NCBI GenBank assembly: GCA_902785645.1
Contig: CACZZG010000008.1
Coordinates: forward strand, 1-39,012
Source of the DNA: an uncultured Erysipelotrichaceae bacterium
Lineage (GTDB): Bacteria; Bacillota_I; Bacilli_A; RFN20; CAG-826
Length of the DNA stretch: 39,012 nucleotides
Direction: 5' to 3'
Numbering within the stretch: the first letter of the stretch is position 1; each line of letters starts with the position of its first letter. The notes beneath the pieces were generated by a model. It saw nothing but the letters and a program-made list of their open reading frames with translations. It did not search any database and was not told the origin of the DNA. Positions 3,712-35,734 of the stretch are shown piece after piece. The position numbers and the translations under genes were made by a program.

Positions 3712-4914
3712 CTAATCATTTCTTTTGTCTAATTTAACAACGTTTATCATTTTGATTTTGGCGAGATTGTATTCTTCTATTCTTTCGTTGAAAGAAAGCA
3801 TCTCATCAAGAGACTTGAAGATTGTCACAGAAATGCAAGAGTAGAAAATGATGAATGGGAATGATGAAATGCCACATATGCGCATTGTAAGTAAAGCACT
3901 TAGTATTATTAGCCCAGCATATACATATCTAATTGCGATATCTAAATAGCCGTAGTTATAAGCTTTATCGTGTATTTCCGACATTCTTTCTCTGAGTTCT
4001 TCACCACTACGAACATCATCAAGGCTATTCTCAAGTTGAAGAATATCTTTTTTCTTATTCTTTAAGATAGGTTGGACAATGATGTTATTCAATAACGCTA
4101 ATACCATCGGCACTAATGCGAGCATAATGTTTCGATAGTCATTGAGAATTACAATAGTAATCAAACCGATTGATAACACAATAATCAGCAATAGATTCAT
4201 TGGAGAAGATAATGAAAGCTTCTTATACTGCTCATATCTTTTGATGTAATCTTTAAATTTTTTTTCCGGTAGATAGTCATTGGAAAAATACTTTTTATCT
4301 AGATTCTTCATAATTCGATATGAGACGAGTTTAAGAATCAACTCTGCAATAATGGCTAACGAAAGGAATAAAGCAGGAATATAAACCTTTGTGTCATCTT
4401 TTATAAAATAAACACCCGCTACCGCTAAACCCATAGCTATTATTTGGATAATGCTGAGTCCAATCTTTGAGGAAACACTGAGTGGTTCTACCTTTGGCTT
4501 AGTGGCTTTTTTAAATTCAAAGCTCTGCACATAAAGGCCTGTTCCATCCCAAATTTCAATGAACTTATTGATTGGCAAAGAATACTTTCCGCGACTTGGA
4601 TCTAAGAGATAAACTCTTTTCCATCTTATCTTTGTCACTACAACCGCATGTTTTGCCCCATTTTTAAGCGCCATTGAGGCAATAAAGGGAAAAGATGTGC
4701 AATTATTCAATTCACTTTTTTCCGTGACTTTAAGCGCTTCTAAATTAACTCCTTCCTTTTTCGCTAGCTTCATCAAATCAGAATAAGAATAAGCACCGTG
4801 TTCTTCTTTTTGTGACATGAAAAGATAGTTTTTATCCTTATTGATGTTTGCTAACACCATCTTTAGACAAGCGAATCCGCAATCGTCTTTTTGTACTTGT
4901 GGAATATAAAACAT
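3712..4914 (-). CDS. Peptidase C39-domain membrane protein lacking an ATPase domain
   Basis: 400 residues. Residues 1-135 form a peptidase C39 domain with an apparently intact catalytic set: Gln6, Cys12 in DDCGFACLKM, His89 in AKHAVVV and Asp105 in LLDPSRGKYSL. C39 peptidases normally cut after the double glycine of bacteriocin or pheromone leaders as part of an ABC exporter. About six hydrophobic segments follow (near 152-171, 178-198, 239-257, 262-283, 330-349, 353-367). The protein ends at residue 400, roughly where an exporter would enter its nucleotide-binding domain. No Walker motifs exist here or in the 34 nt before ybeY. It may be a stand-alone processing peptidase or use an ATPase encoded elsewhere; the substrate is unknown. 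The start has AGGAGG 6 nt upstream, inside a hairpin nearly identical to the one before comEA. It sits between dnaJ and ybeY, not a standard position for such a gene. Confidence 0.85.
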   Translation of the reverse strand: MFYIPQVQKDDCGFACLKMVLANINKDKNYLFMSQKEEHGAYSYSDLMKLAKKEGVNLEALKVTEKSELNNCTSFPFIASMALKNGAKHAVVVTKIRWKRVYLLDPSRGKYSLPINKFIEIWDGTGLYVQSFEFKKATKPKVEPLSVSSKIGLSIIQIIAMGLAVAGVYFIKDDTKVYIPALFLSLAIIAELILKLVSYRIMKNLDKKYFSNDYLPEKKFKDYIKRYEQYKKLSLSSPMNLLLIIVLSIGLITIVILNDYRNIMLALVPMVLALLNNIIVQPILKNKKKDILQLENSLDDVRSGEELRERMSEIHDKAYNYGYLDIAIRYVYAGLIILSALLTMRICGISSFPFIIFYSCISVTIFKSLDEMLSFNERIEEYNLAKIKMINVVKLDKRND

Positions 4915-4963
4915 AAAACACCTCCTACCAACTAATAGGGATGTTTTGTCATTATTTTTTCAC
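4915..4963 (-). promoter_or_regulatory. SD-sequestering hairpin leader, copy 1 (shared with comEA)
   Basis: On the minus strand the region opens with GTGAAAAAATAATGACAAAA and folds into AAAACAUC-CCUA / UAGG-A-GGUGUUUU around the loop UUAGUUGG. The stem has 12 pairs, one U-G wobble and a bulged A. AGGAGG (4921-4926) is in the 3' arm, and the ATG of the C39 gene follows the U-rich end. The copy before comEA aligns without gaps over about 50 nt. It could act as an SD sequestrator, a terminator-like attenuator, or a protein or DNA operator. The mechanism is inferred; the shared sequence and fold are visible. Confidence 0.72.
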
Positions 4964-4970
4964 ATAAAAT

Positions 4971-22207: not shown

Positions 22208-22227
22208 AACTACATAAAAATGTAGTT
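22208..22227 (-). terminator. Terminator after comEC, overlapping its stop codon
   Basis: Minus-strand stem AACTACAT / ATGTAGTT with a TTTT loop, then TGTTT. The comEC TAG (22210-22212) falls in the 3' arm. AT-rich, so it may be a weak terminator. Confidence 0.55.
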
Positions 22228-24222
22228 AGAATATGTAATTGTTCCTTCAATATATGTACTTCTGATCTTCACATTGTTGCGGTTTAACGTTTCAATTACA
22301 GACTTATGAGGGTGGCCATATTTATTGTTTTTTCCGCACGAGATAATTGCTTCTTTTGGTGAAAGATATTTTACAAACTCATCACATGTTGAAGTGTTTG
22401 AGCCATGATGACCCGCTTTAAGAATGTCACAATCGATATGTTGATATGTTTTGATGATATCCTTTTCCACTTTTATTGGTGCATCACCCATTATTAAAAA
22501 ATCTTTTTTGCACAAGGAAAAACCGAGGACTAACGAACCATCATTATCTTCACTACTAGTAATTATATTGTTGTAATTATTGAATATAATTCCAGCAAAG
22601 CTTAATGGAAATTTAGCATGCTCAGTAATGACGTTTTTAACATAAAAATTCTTTTTTAAAGAATCCAGACTACCAGAGTGATCAAAATCATCATGTGTTG
22701 TGACAACTAAATCGATATTATATATTCTCTTTTTCCTTAGATATGGGATGAGTGATTCTTTGGCAAGATCAAACGAGATAGATCCACCCACATCAATCAT
22801 CATCGTTTTGGTTCCTTTTCGTATCAAGCAGGCATCTCCCTGTCCAACATTAATGAAGCTAACCTCCTCGCTAACGAAGTTTTTAAACGGCACTAGATAA
22901 AGTGTTAGCCCTACAAGTAAAGCTCCAATAGCGGCCTTATAAATGGGTATAAAATCGATGCTCTTATAGTAGAAATAGACTAGAAGAATTAAAACATATA
23001 TTAAAATCCAATATTCATTAAATGGAGGGGCATTAATTTGAAAAGAAGCATAGCTTAGCCAACCCAAAAGATTAGATATTCCCTTATAACAAAAGTCCAC
23101 CACACCATAAATCGGTATTCCATAAAAAGTCACTAACGCAAATATCGCCACCACAACAAATAAAGGAGAAAGCAACAATTGCAAAGGCAAAGATAAAGGA
23201 TTTAGCCCGTTGTAGAATTTCAATTCAAAAGGAATGAAGTATAGATAAAATAAACATAACTCCATAATCCTTTTCCTAATTCGTTTATGATGGATAATTG
23301 CGTCTTTTATGAATATCCCAAATAAAGGTGTCATATAGCCAAGAACAAAAGATATTTGATATGACAAATGATAATCTACAAGGATAAAAAACATAGCAGA
23401 TATTGATAATAAATCAATATGCTTAAACTTATTCTTCAGAAAAAGATCATTGATGCACTTTAAAAGTTCAATCAGACAAATTCGAATGATTGTAAATCTT
23501 GGGAAAGTGAAAATTAAATATGGAAATAAAAAAGCAAGTGACAGATATTTGATCCTTTTGTTTTTGATGAAATAAGACAAAATAAACTCTATAAAGTGCA
23601 AAAAGGCATAAATATATAAACCTGTCGCGTTTGCAAATTTAGTAAGGTGTAAGCGATTGATGTTTGTTAAATCCTCACTATCGTCATTTAAAGAAAATAG
23701 CATCGAGCCAATGATCGTTTTGCTTTCATCATTAAAGTGAGATAGGAATTTTTGTTGTTTTTCTTTTATTCTGATGGGATTAGAGAATTTAACTTCTACC
23801 CCATCCGGATAAAGCTGATAATTAACTCCTTTTTTCTTTAAATAATCCTCAAAATCGAATTGTGATTCTATTCTAGTAAAATCAAGACTCTTTTTCTTCC
23901 CTTTTATCTTAAGATAATCACCAATTTCAAATTCATTATTCTTACTATATGTATAGAGCTTTTCTCCTTTGGAGAGCAAGATGAAATAATTTTGATGGGA
24001 ATCAATTACAATGCCGGCGTAATATTCTTGCTTAAAATCAAATTTAACAAACGATAATCCCACTCCCAAGCCAAAAGCAATCAAGCATATAACACTTATT
24101 CTCTTTCCATAATTCCTTATTAAGATAATTAAAATAAGAAAACCTATAATGCCAAAGACTATATAAGAGAATCTAAGTGATACACCTAAATATAAATATA
24201 GGAAAATGAAAAACAGTATCAC
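22210..24222 (-). CDS. comEC: Competence DNA-uptake channel ComEC
   Basis: Membrane channel that moves transforming single-stranded DNA into the cytosol. 670 residues: N-terminal hydrophobic segments and a soluble OB-like part (about 60-160), the multi-spanning Competence domain (about 175-450), then a C-terminal metallo-beta-lactamase-like domain with TTHDDFDHSG and GHHGSNTST. Both metal motifs are intact, consistent with nuclease function in this family. The start is a GTG overlapping the comEA TGA by 4 nt, so the genes are translationally coupled. comEB, often between comEA and comEC, is missing. Confidence 0.93.
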   Translation of the reverse strand: MILFFIFLYLYLGVSLRFSYIVFGIIGFLILIILIRNYGKRISVICLIAFGLGVGLSFVKFDFKQEYYAGIVIDSHQNYFILLSKGEKLYTYSKNNEFEIGDYLKIKGKKKSLDFTRIESQFDFEDYLKKKGVNYQLYPDGVEVKFSNPIRIKEKQQKFLSHFNDESKTIIGSMLFSLNDDSEDLTNINRLHLTKFANATGLYIYAFLHFIEFILSYFIKNKRIKYLSLAFLFPYLIFTFPRFTIIRICLIELLKCINDLFLKNKFKHIDLLSISAMFFILVDYHLSYQISFVLGYMTPLFGIFIKDAIIHHKRIRKRIMELCLFYLYFIPFELKFYNGLNPLSLPLQLLLSPLFVVVAIFALVTFYGIPIYGVVDFCYKGISNLLGWLSYASFQINAPPFNEYWILIYVLILLVYFYYKSIDFIPIYKAAIGALLVGLTLYLVPFKNFVSEEVSFINVGQGDACLIRKGTKTMMIDVGGSISFDLAKESLIPYLRKKRIYNIDLVVTTHDDFDHSGSLDSLKKNFYVKNVITEHAKFPLSFAGIIFNNYNNIITSSEDNDGSLVLGFSLCKKDFLIMGDAPIKVEKDIIKTYQHIDCDILKAGHHGSNTSTCDEFVKYLSPKEAIISCGKNNKYGHPHKSVIETLNRNNVKIRSTYIEGTITYSNYIFM

Positions 24223-24761
24223 GCGTGAAGAATGACGAAGTTTCTAATTTTACGATAAGTAGCGTTACCAATTCCGTAGACTTCAGTTAATTGCTCAAGA
24301 GTCTTAAATGATCCATTGCTTGTTCGATAACTAACAATTGAACTAGCAATTGATGAAGTAATACCGTTGATTGTCATCAATTTATCAGCATCATCAACAT
24401 TAATGTTGACTTTGGCAATTTCTGAATTGTTACAGACATCTGTGTTATCAAATTTAGATGCAATATAGTAGGTGTTTCCGTTCTTGAGTGTTGCATCCTC
24501 ATAGTACGCTAAAGAATCTGCATTACTTGTTGTACCACCACCAGCATTAATTAAGTCAGCCATGGTAACTGTTCCAGAAGATAGCACATATGTTCCTGGT
24601 TTTTGTACCTCTCCTTCAATTGTGTAGGAATAGCCTTTTTCGTTTTGAGCTATTTCCGAGTCGTTGGTTGTTTTTGTGTTGTTAACTTTCGGATCAATAA
24701 TCATAAAACCGATTATGACTACTGCTGCTGCGATGACAACACCAATAATAACTTTGTACAT
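24219..24761 (-). CDS. comEA: Competence DNA receptor ComEA
   Basis: Membrane-anchored DNA-binding protein that hands captured DNA to ComEC. 180 residues: one N-terminal membrane anchor (about 3-22), a SLBB domain (YTIEGEVQKPGTYVLSSG, about 50-100), and a C-terminal helix-hairpin-helix pair (VNINVDDADKLMTINGITSSIA and LTEVYGIGNATYRKI). Ends in TGA. AGGAGG lies 8 nt before the ATG but is buried in a 12-bp hairpin (24765-24796), suggesting post-transcriptional control of the comEA-comEC operon. The same leader precedes the C39 membrane protein. Confidence 0.95.
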   Translation of the reverse strand: MYKVIIGVVIAAAVVIIGFMIIDPKVNNTKTTNDSEIAQNEKGYSYTIEGEVQKPGTYVLSSGTVTMADLINAGGGTTSNADSLAYYEDATLKNGNTYYIASKFDNTDVCNNSEIAKVNINVDDADKLMTINGITSSIASSIVSYRTSNGSFKTLEQLTEVYGIGNATYRKIRNFVILHA

Positions 24762-24812
24762 ATAAAAAACCTCCTACCAACTAATAGGAGGCTTTTGCTA
24801 TTTTTTTGTCAC
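24762..24812 (-). promoter_or_regulatory. SD-sequestering hairpin leader, copy 2 (comEA)
   Basis: On the minus strand GTGACAAAAAAATAGCAAAA is followed by the stem AAAAGCCUCCUA / UAGGAGGUUUUU (12 pairs, one G-U) with loop UUAGUUGG. The 3' arm contains AGGAGG (24770-24775) and runs into a U tract that stops at the comEA ATG. The form is that of an intrinsic terminator placed exactly over the ribosome-binding site. It aligns without gaps with copy 1 at 4915-4963. The 5' arms differ in four of eight inner bases yet still pair, which supports a functional fold. The loop with flanks resembles a tRNA D-loop (AGUUGGUA). Confidence 0.78.
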
Positions 24813-24827
24813 TTTTTTTGAAAAAGA

Positions 24828-25298
24828 TTATTTTGAACCAATCTTTAAGATTTCAACTTTATAGTTTTTGATAGCTTTGACATCAATGATGTCACCAACT
24901 GATTTGCCCATAATGGCTTCGCCTAAAGCACAAGAGTTTGAAATTTTACCGTTAAATGGATCGCTTTCAACTGTACCGACGATCATATATTCGGCTTCTT
25001 TGCCAGTTTCGACAAATCTTAATGTGACTGTTGAACCTAAACCAACACGATTGCCTTTAGAATTTTCTTCTAAAATTTCACTGTTATTTAAGATATCTTC
25101 GATTTCTTTAATACGACTTTCGACTTCGGCTTGTTTTTGTCTGGCGGCATCATAGTCAGCGTTTTCGCTTAAGTCACCTTGTGCACGAGCTTCGGCTAAT
25201 TGACGTTTAACTTCATCTCTAACAACATCAATTAAATAACGTAATTCTTCTTCAAGTTTTTTATATCCAGCTTTAGTGAGTTTTGTTTTCTCTGCCAT
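24828..25298 (-). CDS. greA: Transcription elongation factor GreA
   Basis: Rescues backtracked RNA polymerase by stimulating cleavage of the transcript. 156 residues: the N-terminal coiled coil with the conserved acidic tip (ARAQGDLSENADYDAAR) and a C-terminal FKBP-like domain (GSTVTLRFVETGKEAEYMIVG). GAGG lies 7 nt before the ATG. Its stop is 67 nt upstream of comEA; no strong terminator lies between other than the comEA hairpin itself, so greA transcripts may reach that hairpin. Confidence 0.97.
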   Translation of the reverse strand: MAEKTKLTKAGYKKLEEELRYLIDVVRDEVKRQLAEARAQGDLSENADYDAARQKQAEVESRIKEIEDILNNSEILEENSKGNRVGLGSTVTLRFVETGKEAEYMIVGTVESDPFNGKISNSCALGEAIMGKSVGDIIDVKAIKNYKVEILKIGSK

Positions 25299-31735: not shown

Positions 31736-32971
31736 TTATTTCTTCACCTTGTCCCAATATTCTTTTAGAGTTTGTTCAAATTTATTGTCTTGATAAATAT
31801 AATATTTCGCATCTTTTATATCATCAGGTAAATATTGTTGCTTTACCCAATGATGTGAATAGTTATGAGGATATTTATAATTTTGTCCTTTTACCTTTGC
31901 ATCCTCGCCATCAAAGTGTGTGTTTTGTAATGAACGAGGAACATTAATCCCCTTCCCTTGATGGACATCAGAAATTGCTGTATCAATAGCCAAAACTGCC
32001 GAATTACTCTTAGGAGCAGTCGCGATTAAAATAATTGCGTTTGTTAATGGGAGTCTTGCTTCTGGCATGCCAAGTTGTAAAGCAGAATCGACGCATGCTT
32101 TAACAATAGGAATGATGTTTGGATAAGCCATTCCCACATCTTCTGAAGCTGAGCAAAGCAATCTTCTACATGCTGCGATTAAGTCGCCGGCCTCTAGCAT
32201 TTTAGCCAAATAAAAGACCGCTGCATTGGGATCAGAGCCCCTTAAAGATTTCATTAAAGCGGATAAATTATCAAAGTGTTTATCTTCGCTTCTATCATAG
32301 GAAATATTGGCTTTATCAATAAGCGAATTCACCATTTTTAGCGTGATTTTGCTGCTTTTTGTGAGGGAATTGCTAAGAAATTCGAGATTATTGAGGGCTT
32401 TTCTCATATCGCCATTTGCGGAAAGTGCAAGCAAAGATAAGGCCTCTTTTTCAAACGTCACATTAATTTCTTTGGCGGCTCTAAGCAAACCTTTTTGAAT
32501 TTCGTCTTTTGTGATTGCTTTAAATTCAAAAACAGTACAACGAGATAACAACGCTGGGTAGATATAGAAATATGGATTCTCGGTTGTGGAAGCAATTAAA
32601 GTTATGTCACCATTTTCCACAAACTCGAGCAATGATTGTTGTTGTTTTTTGTTAAGATATTGGATCTCATCTAGATATAATAAGATACCATTTGTATTAA
32701 ATAGACCATTGATGTCAGCGATGACTTTTTTAATATCTTCTGTTCCGGCAGTTGTTCCATTCAATTTATAAAGGCTCATGTTAGCTTTTTTCGCTATTAT
32801 GTTCGCCATTGTGGTTTTGCCGGTTCCTGGAGGACCATAAAAAATCATGTTGGAAATATGACCTGAGTCAATAAATTTTCTAAAAGAAGAATCTTTATTC
32901 AATAAGTGAGTTTGCCCCACCATATCTTCAATTCTTTCTGGTCTTATTAAATCTGCTAATGGTTTTTTCAT
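31736..32971 (-). CDS. rarA: Replication-associated recombination protein RarA (MgsA)
   Basis: AAA+ ATPase acting at stalled replication forks. 411 residues: MKKPLADLIRPERIEDMVGQTHLL start, Walker A GPPGTGKTTMAN, Walker B LYLDEIQYL, sensor STTENP, and the C-terminal tetramerisation domain. TTGATT, 17 nt, TATTAT ends 6 nt before the ATG and there is no Shine-Dalgarno: the clearest leaderless candidate in the window. Confidence 0.96.
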   Translation of the reverse strand: MKKPLADLIRPERIEDMVGQTHLLNKDSSFRKFIDSGHISNMIFYGPPGTGKTTMANIIAKKANMSLYKLNGTTAGTEDIKKVIADINGLFNTNGILLYLDEIQYLNKKQQQSLLEFVENGDITLIASTTENPYFYIYPALLSRCTVFEFKAITKDEIQKGLLRAAKEINVTFEKEALSLLALSANGDMRKALNNLEFLSNSLTKSSKITLKMVNSLIDKANISYDRSEDKHFDNLSALMKSLRGSDPNAAVFYLAKMLEAGDLIAACRRLLCSASEDVGMAYPNIIPIVKACVDSALQLGMPEARLPLTNAIILIATAPKSNSAVLAIDTAISDVHQGKGINVPRSLQNTHFDGEDAKVKGQNYKYPHNYSHHWVKQQYLPDDIKDAKYYIYQDNKFEQTLKEYWDKVKK

Positions 32972-32977
32972 GCGTAT

Positions 32978-33006
32978 ATAATACTTTTCTTTTCTTGTAT
33001 AATCAA
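32978..33006 (-). promoter_or_regulatory. Promoter of rarA-dtd-mnmA, leaderless
   Basis: Minus strand TTGATT (33001-33006), 17 nt, TATTAT (32978-32983); ATG 6 nt later. Transcription should begin on or next to the A of the start codon. Confidence 0.7.
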
Positions 33007-33035
33007 GAAATACACTCTATTAAAGGTAAATAAAA

Positions 33036-33059
33036 ATCCAGTTCATTAAAGAACCGGAT
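33036..33059 (-). terminator. Terminator after the nucleoside phosphorylase gene
   Basis: Minus-strand stem ATCCGGTTC / GAACTGGAT with one G-U pair and loop TTTAAT, followed by TTTTATTT. Confidence 0.82.
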
Positions 33060-33082
33060 ATTTTTATTAATTAATAAATTAA

Positions 33083-34393
33083 TTATTTCTCGATGATTTC
33101 CTTGATAACAGGACGCGCTTCAACTTTCTCTTTAACAATTACGTAAGCGTGTTTAATGTCTTCAATGATTGGAAGATATTCTGATTCAGGTTTGTTGGTG
33201 TGAATTGTGCACAACGTTTCGCCTTTTTTGACATAATCTCCAATCTTCTTGTTGAGCATAATACCAGCGGACATGTCAATGACGTCTTCGAGTGTTTCTC
33301 TACCACCACCGAGCTTCATACTGCTAACGCCAATTTCAAGAGCTTCTAATTCTTTGACATAACCATCTTGTTCTGCTTTGACATCAACAATGTGTTTGGC
33401 GAGTTCAAATTTCTCTGGATGTAGGATATATGATAAATCTCCGCCTTGTGCTTCGATCATCAAACAGAATTTCTCAAAGGCCTTACCATTTTTGATACAT
33501 TCAACAAGAGCTTTTCTACCTTCTTCTTTGGTTTTGAATACTTTGGCTTGTTGAAGCATAATTGAACCTGCTGTGTAGCATAATTCCATTAAATCTTCTG
33601 GTCCTTCGCCATGTAAAGCGGCGATTGCTTCTTTGACTTCAAGAGCATTACCAACAGCTTTACCTAAAGGTTCACTCATATCAGAAAGAACGGCTCTGGT
33701 ATCTCTACCTAATCTATTTCCGATTTCGACCATGATGTTAGCGAGTTCTCTTGCGTCATCCATGTTTTTCATGAATGCACCTTCACCTACGGTGACATCT
33801 AATAAAATGGTATCAGCACCACTAGCTAATTTCTTTGACATAACGCTAGCGGCAATTAAAGGAATGGATTCAACTGTTCCAGTAACATCTCTCAATGCGT
33901 ACATTTTCTTATCGGCAGGAACTAGTGATGCGGTTTGTCCAACAATTGCGCAACCAATTCTATTAACTTGATCGACAAATCTTTGACCTTCGATGGCGAT
34001 TGTGACACCAGGAATGGACTCTAACTTATCTAATGTGCCACCAGTATGACCTAAACCACGACCGCTCAATTTTGCTAATGTCGCACCACAAGCAGCGACC
34101 ATTGGGCCTAAAACTAAACTAGTTTTATCACCAACACCACCTGTTGAGTGTTTATCGACTTTAACACCTTTAAGCATTGATAAATCTAAGACTTCACCAG
34201 AATGTTCCATGGCATCAGTCAATGTACTGACTTCTCTTTTACTCATTCCACGGAAAACAATGGCCATTTGCATAGCGCTACTTTGATAATCAGGAATTTC
34301 TCCTTTTGTGTAGCCATTTACCCAGAAGCGAATTTCTTCATCGCTTAATTCATGACCATCACGTTTTTTGATAATCAAATCTACCATTCTCAT
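33083..34393 (-). CDS. pdp: Pyrimidine-nucleoside phosphorylase
   Basis: Cleaves uridine, deoxyuridine or thymidine with phosphate to base and (deoxy)ribose-1-phosphate. 436 residues from the ATG at 34391-34393, chosen because MRMVDLIIKKRDG is the standard family start and GAGG lies 9 nt upstream. Signature SGRGLGHTGGTLDKLE and the phosphate loop KHSTGGVGDKTSL are present, with the C-terminal lipoyl-like half-barrel. The broad Firmicute enzyme is more likely than a strict thymidine phosphorylase. It complements Cdd in pyrimidine salvage. Confidence 0.95.
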   Translation of the reverse strand: MRMVDLIIKKRDGHELSDEEIRFWVNGYTKGEIPDYQSSAMQMAIVFRGMSKREVSTLTDAMEHSGEVLDLSMLKGVKVDKHSTGGVGDKTSLVLGPMVAACGATLAKLSGRGLGHTGGTLDKLESIPGVTIAIEGQRFVDQVNRIGCAIVGQTASLVPADKKMYALRDVTGTVESIPLIAASVMSKKLASGADTILLDVTVGEGAFMKNMDDARELANIMVEIGNRLGRDTRAVLSDMSEPLGKAVGNALEVKEAIAALHGEGPEDLMELCYTAGSIMLQQAKVFKTKEEGRKALVECIKNGKAFEKFCLMIEAQGGDLSYILHPEKFELAKHIVDVKAEQDGYVKELEALEIGVSSMKLGGGRETLEDVIDMSAGIMLNKKIGDYVKKGETLCTIHTNKPESEYLPIIEDIKHAYVIVKEKVEARPVIKEIIEK

Positions 34394-34463
34394 ATATAAA
34401 TACCTCGCTATAATCATAACATATTAGAAGATAAACTTTGCATATATTTTCTATAAGAAAAGT

Positions 34464-34469
34464 CATAAT
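34464..34469 (+). promoter_or_regulatory. Possible -10 box of the RsmF-like gene, leaderless
   Basis: CATAAT ends 8 nt before the ATG at 34478; no Shine-Dalgarno between. The -35 is unclear, so this is weaker than the rarA and fmt cases. Confidence 0.4.
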
Positions 34470-34477
34470 ATATTTGT

Positions 34478-35734
34478 ATGAACTTTTACGAACATTTGAA
34501 ATCATATTTAAACGATGAACAAATCGATAAATTAAAAGCTTCATTAAGTGAAGAAAATAAGCATGGTGTTTTAGTAAACACCAAAAAGATGAGTGATGAG
34601 ATGTTTTTATCACTGTTTCCTCATGTCGAAAAACACCCAATTGTAAAACACGCTTATATATTTGATAAAAGAGAATATGAGCTAGGAAAAAGTATATATC
34701 ATGCTTTAGGATGCTTCTATATTCAAGAGCCTTCCGCAATGGTCCCTGCCTACTTACTTAATGCACAAGAAGGCGATATTGTTTTGGATTTATGTGCAGC
34801 TCCTGGAGGAAAAACAATACAGACATCACTACTAATGAATGATTCTGGTTTGATTGTTGCTAATGATCTATCAAAGTCTCGTGCTTTTTCTATTATCGAA
34901 AACGAAGAAAGATTAGGTTTAGGAAACATCATCGTCACAAATAATGACTTTTCTAAAATATATAAAAACTATTTATCAACTTTTGACAAAATCATTTTAG
35001 ATGCCCCATGTTCTGGATCCGGCATGTTCAGAAAAGAAGATAAAATGATGCAGGATTGGTCTTATAACAAAGTTTTGAAATTCGCGGAAATACAAAAAGA
35101 ATTGATCCTATATGCATATGAAATGCTAAAACCAGGTGGAACTATGTGTTATTCAACGTGCTCTTTTTCTCTAGAAGAAGATGAAGATGTCATTGAATAT
35201 TTATTAGAGAAAACTGATGCGGAAATCGTTAAAAGTGACCACCAGCTTTTCTTTAGAAAAGACAATAACCCGTTGGGCTTTCATCTATTGCCATCATTGT
35301 TCCCTGGAGAAGGACATTATATTTGCTTAATAAGGAAACCTGGAGTGTTTATAAAAGCACCTAATTCTAAGACAAATAAAACTGGAAAATATGGTTTCCA
35401 ATTTGAGTATAAGTTTGGTAATTATCTATTTGGAAACAATGTTTCTTTTAATACCAAACATCTTAATATTGTGCGCTTAGGTGTTAAAATTGGCGAGATA
35501 TTTAATAATGACATTAAATATGATTATCACTATGCGCATTATATCCAAAAATTTAGTAAAAAATACGAACTTAATGACGCTCAAGTTAAAACTTATTTCA
35601 CCGGTAATGTGCTAAATGTTCCTATTGATAAAGGAACCTATTTATTAACATATAAAGGCATTAGTGTTGATATTACTAAATCCGATGGAAGAATGATCAA
35701 AAATTCACTTCCCAAAGGACTAAGAACAAAATAA
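34478..35734 (+). CDS. RsmF/NOL1-NOP2-Sun family rRNA cytosine-5 methyltransferase
   Basis: 418 residues. SAM-binding DLCAAPGGKT (about 101-110), the first catalytic-loop DAPCSGSGMFRK and the catalytic cysteine motif YSTCSF are all present, followed by an insertion and a C-terminal PUA-like region (VLNVPIDKGTYLLTYKGISVDI). This architecture matches RsmF-type enzymes that methylate 16S rRNA. Exact target positions cannot be read from sequence. The gene is alone, divergent from the phosphorylase and convergent with plsC. Confidence 0.9.
   Translation: MNFYEHLKSYLNDEQIDKLKASLSEENKHGVLVNTKKMSDEMFLSLFPHVEKHPIVKHAYIFDKREYELGKSIYHALGCFYIQEPSAMVPAYLLNAQEGDIVLDLCAAPGGKTIQTSLLMNDSGLIVANDLSKSRAFSIIENEERLGLGNIIVTNNDFSKIYKNYLSTFDKIILDAPCSGSGMFRKEDKMMQDWSYNKVLKFAEIQKELILYAYEMLKPGGTMCYSTCSFSLEEDEDVIEYLLEKTDAEIVKSDHQLFFRKDNNPLGFHLLPSLFPGEGHYICLIRKPGVFIKAPNSKTNKTGKYGFQFEYKFGNYLFGNNVSFNTKHLNIVRLGVKIGEIFNNDIKYDYHYAHYIQKFSKKYELNDAQVKTYFTGNVLNVPIDKGTYLLTYKGISVDITKSDGRMIKNSLPKGLRTK

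Follow-up and report, generated by a model that had tools for sequence, protein, structure and literature searches.

Why should a gene for DNA uptake carry, across its own ribosome-binding site, a hairpin that ends in a U-tract? The question is posed by comEA on contig C8 (the window, 39,012 nucleotides), which belongs to a 1.17 Mb, 88% complete genome of an uncultured Erysipelotrichaceae bacterium of the CAG-826 lineage. The close relatives of the source genome are rumen Bacilli, one of them from water buffalo, and all these organisms are known here solely as metagenome assemblies. An earlier note on this DNA had described the hairpin, found a second copy before a gene for a C39 membrane protein, and read the two as a shared cis-acting switch. 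The features concerned are as follows.

24759–24820, minus strand: whole module before comEA (motif, hairpin, Shine-Dalgarno sequence (SD) and start codon), filling the gap between greA and comEA
24807–24812, minus strand: −35-like GTGACA inside AAAAAAAGTGACAAAAAAAT (24800–24819), placed by TG spacing; putative function
24783–24796, minus strand: 5′ arm AAAAGCCTCCTATT of the comEA module, containing −10-like CCTAT at 24784–24788; putative promoter role
24765–24778, minus strand: 3′ arm GGTAGGAGGTTTTT of the comEA module, containing the SD AGGAGG at 24770–24775
24764–24769, minus strand: start of the U-tract, listed within the 3′ arm
24219–24761, minus strand: comEA (SLBB and helix-hairpin-helix domains, found by Pfam/NCBIfam search)
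22210–24222, minus strand: comEC, directly after comEA
24828–25298, minus strand: co-directional greA-like gene upstream of the comEA module, with its stop at about 24828
4911–4970, minus strand: complete module preceding the C39 gene and closely following dnaJ
4958–4963, minus strand: −35-like GTGAAA before the C39 gene; putative function
4934–4947, minus strand: 5′ arm AAAACATCCCTATT of the C39 module, with CCTAT
4915–4929, minus strand: 3′ arm GGTAGGAGGTGTTTT of the C39 module, with the SD AGGAGG
3712–4914, minus strand: C39 peptidase-domain membrane protein, 400 aa (PF03412, E 6e-21)

Both hairpins were recovered on the minus strand when the coordinates were rechecked and the folds recomputed. 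The comEA leader, which reads AAAAAAAGTGACAAAAAAATAGCAAAAGCCTCCTATTAGTTGGTAGGAGGTTTTTTATATG on that strand, folds at 24765–24796 into a stem of 14 paired positions, capped by an AGUU tetraloop that two U·G pairs close; its energy of −17.8 kcal/mol was matched by none of 200 dinucleotide shuffles (z = −4.3), and the predicted unpaired probability of its SD is 0.00. The C39 hairpin (4915–4947) has −13.0 kcal/mol (z = −2.2, with 5 of 200 shuffles equally good), and a separate terminator-like hairpin of dnaJ (AAAGACTCATTTGAGTCTTTTTT) lies upstream of its module. The two leaders can be aligned gap-free along 51 nt with 82% identity, close to the 50 nt or so of the earlier description, and rank first and second in fold energy among 33 start regions of the window, in keeping with the remark that ordinary ribosome sites here have no such fold. 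A literature search found no paper on this element or on competence in this lineage.

The expectation that a shared element should have further copies held. A search with a 91-nt query gave 8 copies in the genome, and pattern searches combined with covariance models gave 13, each of about 60 letters; the comEA module scored 79.8 bits (E 3e-11) with model R1. Covariance-model matches of 18–23 bits in the same genome (L053–L059) were put aside as chance or inspected. An antisense or small-RNA origin of the loop was also dropped: nine of the ten exact copies of the loop block in the genome are full modules and the tenth stands without one, so that no separate sRNA locus stood out. Gene calls came from open reading frames and homology, and the key domains of the following genes were checked with Pfam and NCBIfam. 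Besides the modules of the window, before comEA–comEC and before the C39 gene, the copies stand as follows.

L002: before a gene for a 61-aa peptide, then radC
L003: before dprA
L004: before an ABC transporter gene, after a formate–THF ligase-like gene
L007: before recA, immediately after a cinA-like gene
L006: before a stretch of rpiB, a small protein and a ComFA-like helicase
L014/L060 (G000 C6, about 32500–35060): at the head of an operon with a TadB-like protein and, about 2 kb on, a TadA/CpaF-type ATPase
L051: before a PemK-like gene
L052: before a MuF_C-domain gene
L099: before a small lipoprotein-like gene
L008 (C10) and L012 (C2arg): before short hydrophobic ORFs, divergent and not adjoining a start codon

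Because copies precede comEA–comEC, dprA, recA, the peptide–radC pair, the Tad operon, the ComFA-like helicase, the C39 gene and the ABC transporter gene, the module-bearing set is, to judge from its gene content, a competence regulon, and the earlier remark that the element precedes DNA-uptake genes applies well beyond the window. The sole T2SSE match above cut-off in the genome is a Tad-type, not a ComG-type, pilus ATPase, which suggests that a Tad-type pilus may serve DNA uptake in place of ComG. Tad pili have been reported to be necessary for DNA uptake in Liberibacter (PMC8513845).

Some of the smaller genes behind the module deserve description in their own right. The peptide before radC is 58–61 aa long and conserved (L002, 1559 onward, with homologues in L029, L042, L100, L136, L138, L150, L205 and L214), with a leader-like start LSKEEC...VGEG, a hydrophobic core and a segment ..RLFMSGKG.AAIPGGWKFTW; it had no match in Pfam or NCBIfam. 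With the C39 protease and the ABC transporter also in the regulon, it may act as a bacteriocin or pheromone linked to competence. Short ORFs (21–37 aa, partly hydrophobic) follow the L008 (about 1536–1760) and L012 (about 1500–1665) modules in sense orientation at a distance of about 50–150 nt, and at the L008 copy a second stretch that pairs with an SD (AAGCGTCTCCTA / TAGGAGGCGATGCTT) recalls the leaders of type I toxins. Toxin- or defence-like cargo, namely ASCH-domain proteins, YhcG/DUF1016 nucleases and PemK-like proteins, occurs behind the module at L120, L124, L163, L168, L207, L051 and L151. In many genomes the module is followed, after rpiB and other genes, by members of protein families of 96–136 aa (L006, L101, L113, L121, L132, L159, L209); some of them lie before a ComFA-like helicase, and the one tested had no Pfam match.

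Comparison of the copies indicates that the hairpin is a real RNA structure. Among the ten main copies of the genome, each outer arm tends to fit its own partner more closely than a swapped one (p = 0.0013). Covariance models, the check that the earlier note had proposed, yielded further copies in relatives together with covariation of the arms: across 27 genus copies double-change cells numbered 37 against 19.0 in shuffled pairings (0 of 500 shuffles as high), and shifting the partner reduced the fraction of cells that paired as well as the covariation score. Over 106 family copies, arm matching reached z = −11.6.

The hairpin is preceded by a second conserved block, AAAAAAAGTGACAAAAAAAT, and the two are held at a promoter-like distance. 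The TG of this block lies exactly 23 nt before CCTA in 12 of 12 tabulated copies of the genome and in 24 of 27 genus copies, the other three deviating by no more than 1 nt, and a TG..AAAA motif stands at a nearly fixed distance of about 17 bp from the CCCTAT of the 5′ arm. The family consensus, drawn from 106 copies, runs TTTTTTGnnAAAAAAT, AAAAAnCCCCCTATTTA, TAGGAGG, U-run, ATG; the motif occupies −24 to −19 relative to CCTA in 104 of the 106, and the gap between CCTA and the 3′ arm is 5–13 nt. With its spacer of about 17 bp, this two-block motif places the predicted start of transcription after the 5′ arm. The −10-like sequence corresponds to no known σ consensus, and its hexamer is ambiguous (CCCTAT or TATnTA). 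Furthermore, in 42 of 68 copies the base of the 5′ arm that faces the A of GGAGG is a C, which does not pair, and in 25 it is a U; this argues that the C-run of this arm is kept for more than pairing.

A start at this position would decide the fate of the SD. In read-through RNA, prediction and covariation both pair the SD with the upstream arm, as in an SD mask: its mean unpaired probability is 0.11, with values below 0.2 in 95% of 93 copies. In RNA that begins at the predicted start, the mean is only 0.44, a value at which some own-promoter RNAs must keep a weaker structure, and it is 0.68 for comEA, where the first 37 nt from about the predicted start have no stable structure. Because the predicted start lies after the 5′ arm, the SD would be free in the gene's own mRNA and buried in read-through RNA.

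The strength of the hairpin depends on what lies upstream. A co-directional gene ends within 20 nt of the module in 68 of the 103 copies with an assigned neighbour, and these have a median U-run of 6 and a mean hairpin energy of −14.2 kcal/mol, against 4 and −10.9 kcal/mol in the 35 others (p = 1e-8 for the U-run and 5e-6 for the energy, values that are optimistic because the copies are related and were picked by a structured model). Sixty of the 68 have a U-run of at least 5, which with their G+C-rich stem gives them the make-up of an intrinsic terminator. In the 14 divergent copies the median U-run is 3 and the mean energy −9.9 kcal/mol, and the arm matching of these 14 was not significant (z −1.4, p 0.09).

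As the 106 copies had all come from a structured model, we also took an independent set of 80 comEA orthologue leaders, which are still related to one another but were fetched by protein match regardless of any match to the model. Among the 78 with an assigned upstream stop, the median is −13.8 kcal/mol and the U-run 6 where the gap is short and a separate terminator is lacking, against −9.4 kcal/mol and 2 where the gap is long or a separate terminator is present (p 1.2e-6 and 2.0e-6, respectively); a U-run of at least 4 is present in 44 of 51 of the former and 9 of 27 of the latter. In one genus where a separate terminator can be seen (GGACC..GGTCCTTTTTT), the U-tract is gone and the SD is mostly open (L262, L264, L265), L263 being the exception. 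Within the source genome, the recA copy is the sole adjacent co-directional one that is nearly without a hairpin (no U-run, −3.5 kcal/mol), and this may allow basal expression of a gene that every cell needs. The strict idea that divergent copies are hairpin-free proved too simple: on average their hairpin is weaker and their U-run shorter, and the divergent L099 has a moderate one (−14) that protection from read-through alone does not require.

Combining these findings, we consider it likely that a promoter, a terminator and an SD mask are united in one compact module of the competence regulon. The module's own promoter (−35-like TTTTTTGnnAAAA / GTGACA, a spacer of about 17 bp and a C-rich −10-like CCCTAT..) would overlap the 5′ arm and the loop, so that its transcript would begin at or just before the 3′ arm and expose the SD a few bases from the 5′ end. 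RNA arriving from a co-directional upstream gene would carry the 5′ arm, which would pair with the SD; this SD-pairing stem and the U-run behind it would act as an intrinsic terminator for the upstream gene, and in RNA escaping termination the SD would stay buried. Since read-through RNA has its SD buried, competence genes would be translated only under their own σ factor and would be silent unless that factor is active. At comEA, read-through from greA would be either stopped or masked by the hairpin. The same letters would thereby serve as promoter, terminator and mask, and a silent regulon could adjoin active genes.

What survives of the earlier proposal is the shared cis element and the sequestration of the SD; the view that the element is mainly an RNA switch, read by an RNA regulator, an antisense RNA or an RNA-binding protein, is not supported. 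Such a riboregulator, a leader that always contains the hairpin and is opened across the regulon by a trans-acting RNA, a protein, a ligand or temperature, would account for the covariation of the SD-masking stem and for the hairpins still present in some divergent copies. Loops from one genome also resemble each other more (0.55) than loops from different genomes do (0.40), whereas flanks score 0.29 in both comparisons, as if the loop were read by a species-specific factor, although the same likeness is equally expected of a −10 region under a drifting σ. The spacing of the two blocks is promoter-like, and the loop and stem sequences differ between species. In two divergent copies of the source genome, L008 and L012, CCTATTAGTTRGT and the TGA block are retained at unchanged spacing but no convincing SD hairpin accompanies them, and the hairpin and U-tract follow the upstream neighbour, not the controlled gene. 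The upstream stop codon often lies 0–10 nt before the −35-like block, which leaves no room for another conserved promoter. Moreover, the window has no covariance-model match at the gathering score in Rfam 15, its riboswitches, leaders and thermometers included. Taken together, we regard a riboregulator as unlikely.

Still less probable, in our estimate, is plain genome economy, whereby the 3′ arm of an upstream terminator happens to double as the next SD and has no regulatory meaning. The genomes are tiny, the gaps are short and the terminator features vary with the neighbour, all of which would fit. However, a strong fold that buries a perfect SD occurs at just 2 of 33 start regions of the window, both of this family, and the module marks competence genes and not junctions at large. 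Economy also leaves the second block at its near-constant spacing without explanation, and the arms still match in several copies without a U-tract (z = −4.1 in 17 copies). A DNA-level operator, in which a dimeric regulator would bind the inverted repeat and pairing would be incidental, accords with a bipartite sequence at fixed spacing and with the likeness of copies within a genome, but is very improbable given that the outer arms keep their pairing and not their letters (AAAUAC/GUAUUU, GUACC/GGUAC, UUAUUU/AAAUAA), which a protein-bound repeat would keep.

The putative promoter of the module would be served by the regulon's own σ factor. The genome encodes an RpoD-sized σ, an ECF-type σ and a 181-aa SigH-like σ that sits after cysS and rlmB; rlmB adjoins the SigH-like homologue in 10 of 10 loci checked, and identity to the SigH-like σ of this genome is 26–37% among the best family matches. 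This fast-evolving SigH/ComX-type factor of the cysS–rlmB locus is the likely and a plausible candidate for driving the putative module promoter, and a σ that drifts in this way would fit the greater likeness of loops inside one genome than across genomes. Co-occurrence is uninformative here because the σ is nearly universal in the family (120 of 146 genomes in a profile search); a single-sequence search found it in 35 of 57 element-positive genomes, about 30 being expected. The streptococcal cin-box is TACGAATA, from which TTTTTTGnnAAAA / CCCTAT differs, and the cin-box was absent from the module consensus of the genus and family copies. We know of no SigH/ComX-type com promoter that overlaps an SD hairpin. 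SigH of L. sakei, encoded in a cysS–nusG region, activates late com genes including dprA (PMC3364868); the σ of this genome resembles it in its cysS–rlmB synteny.

The earlier statement that no element of this form had been described was too strong, as the same logic is known at single genes. In phage T4 gene e and I-TevI, a hairpin masks the SD in RNA initiated upstream and a late promoter lies within the 5′ strand of the hairpin (PMC3014915). The transcript of that late promoter lacks the 5′ strand and is translated, whereas the longer early transcripts of gene e are repressed about 100-fold (PMC3014915). In T4 the arrangement serves individual phage genes under late promoters of that phage; in the present genomes it would serve about a dozen operons each, and the module has in addition a U-tract that makes its hairpin terminator-like. 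For the sigG hairpin of B. subtilis, the proposal is that it keeps spoIIG read-through RNA from being translated, and transcripts of the sigG promoter itself are unable to form it (PMC5942855). The sigG case differs from the module in that it concerns one gene, a larger hairpin and sporulation σ factors, and the available text of that report claims no terminator function for the hairpin (PMC5942855). Ordinary intrinsic terminators share with the module a G+C-rich stem followed by a U-run; the module departs from them in that its 3′ arm doubles as the SD of the following gene and that its U-run shrinks or disappears next to a divergent or separately terminated neighbour. The novelty lies in the stereotyped deployment across an entire bacterial regulon and in the fusion with terminator features.

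The element was found with model R2 in 57 of 146 family genomes (19 of 35 genera) and with model R3 in 103 of 279 order genomes (30 of 56 genera), including members of two other families, where some matches lie close to the E cut-off and could be due to chance and where the strongest copy, L199, precedes dprA. comEA itself is present in 138 of the 146 family genomes, and its excess over the 57 with the element may reflect model sensitivity, real variation or both. In one genome (G020), the modules L139, L142 and L145 are near-identical, spacer included, before three unrelated genes with different flanks, and these bear signs of within-genome copying or gene conversion. Such near-identical copies at unrelated genes, together with loops more alike within genomes, allow a tentative and rather doubtful further reading: a portable cassette may be copied between loci and enlist new genes into a competence regulon that has a drifting σ and uses a Tad pilus. 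The bacteriocin-like peptide, the PemK-like protein, the YhcG nuclease and the ASCH protein would be among the genes so enlisted.

If the proposed module is real, it would give a large uncultured order of gut Bacilli a defined competence regulon with a probable promoter, and the read-through safeguard of T4 lysozyme and B. subtilis sigG would have become a regulon-wide standard part. As upstream neighbours vary naturally (divergent, separately terminated or adjacent), comparison could test how transcriptional interference relates to leader structure, and the motif would offer a search handle for competence-linked genes that have no assigned function.
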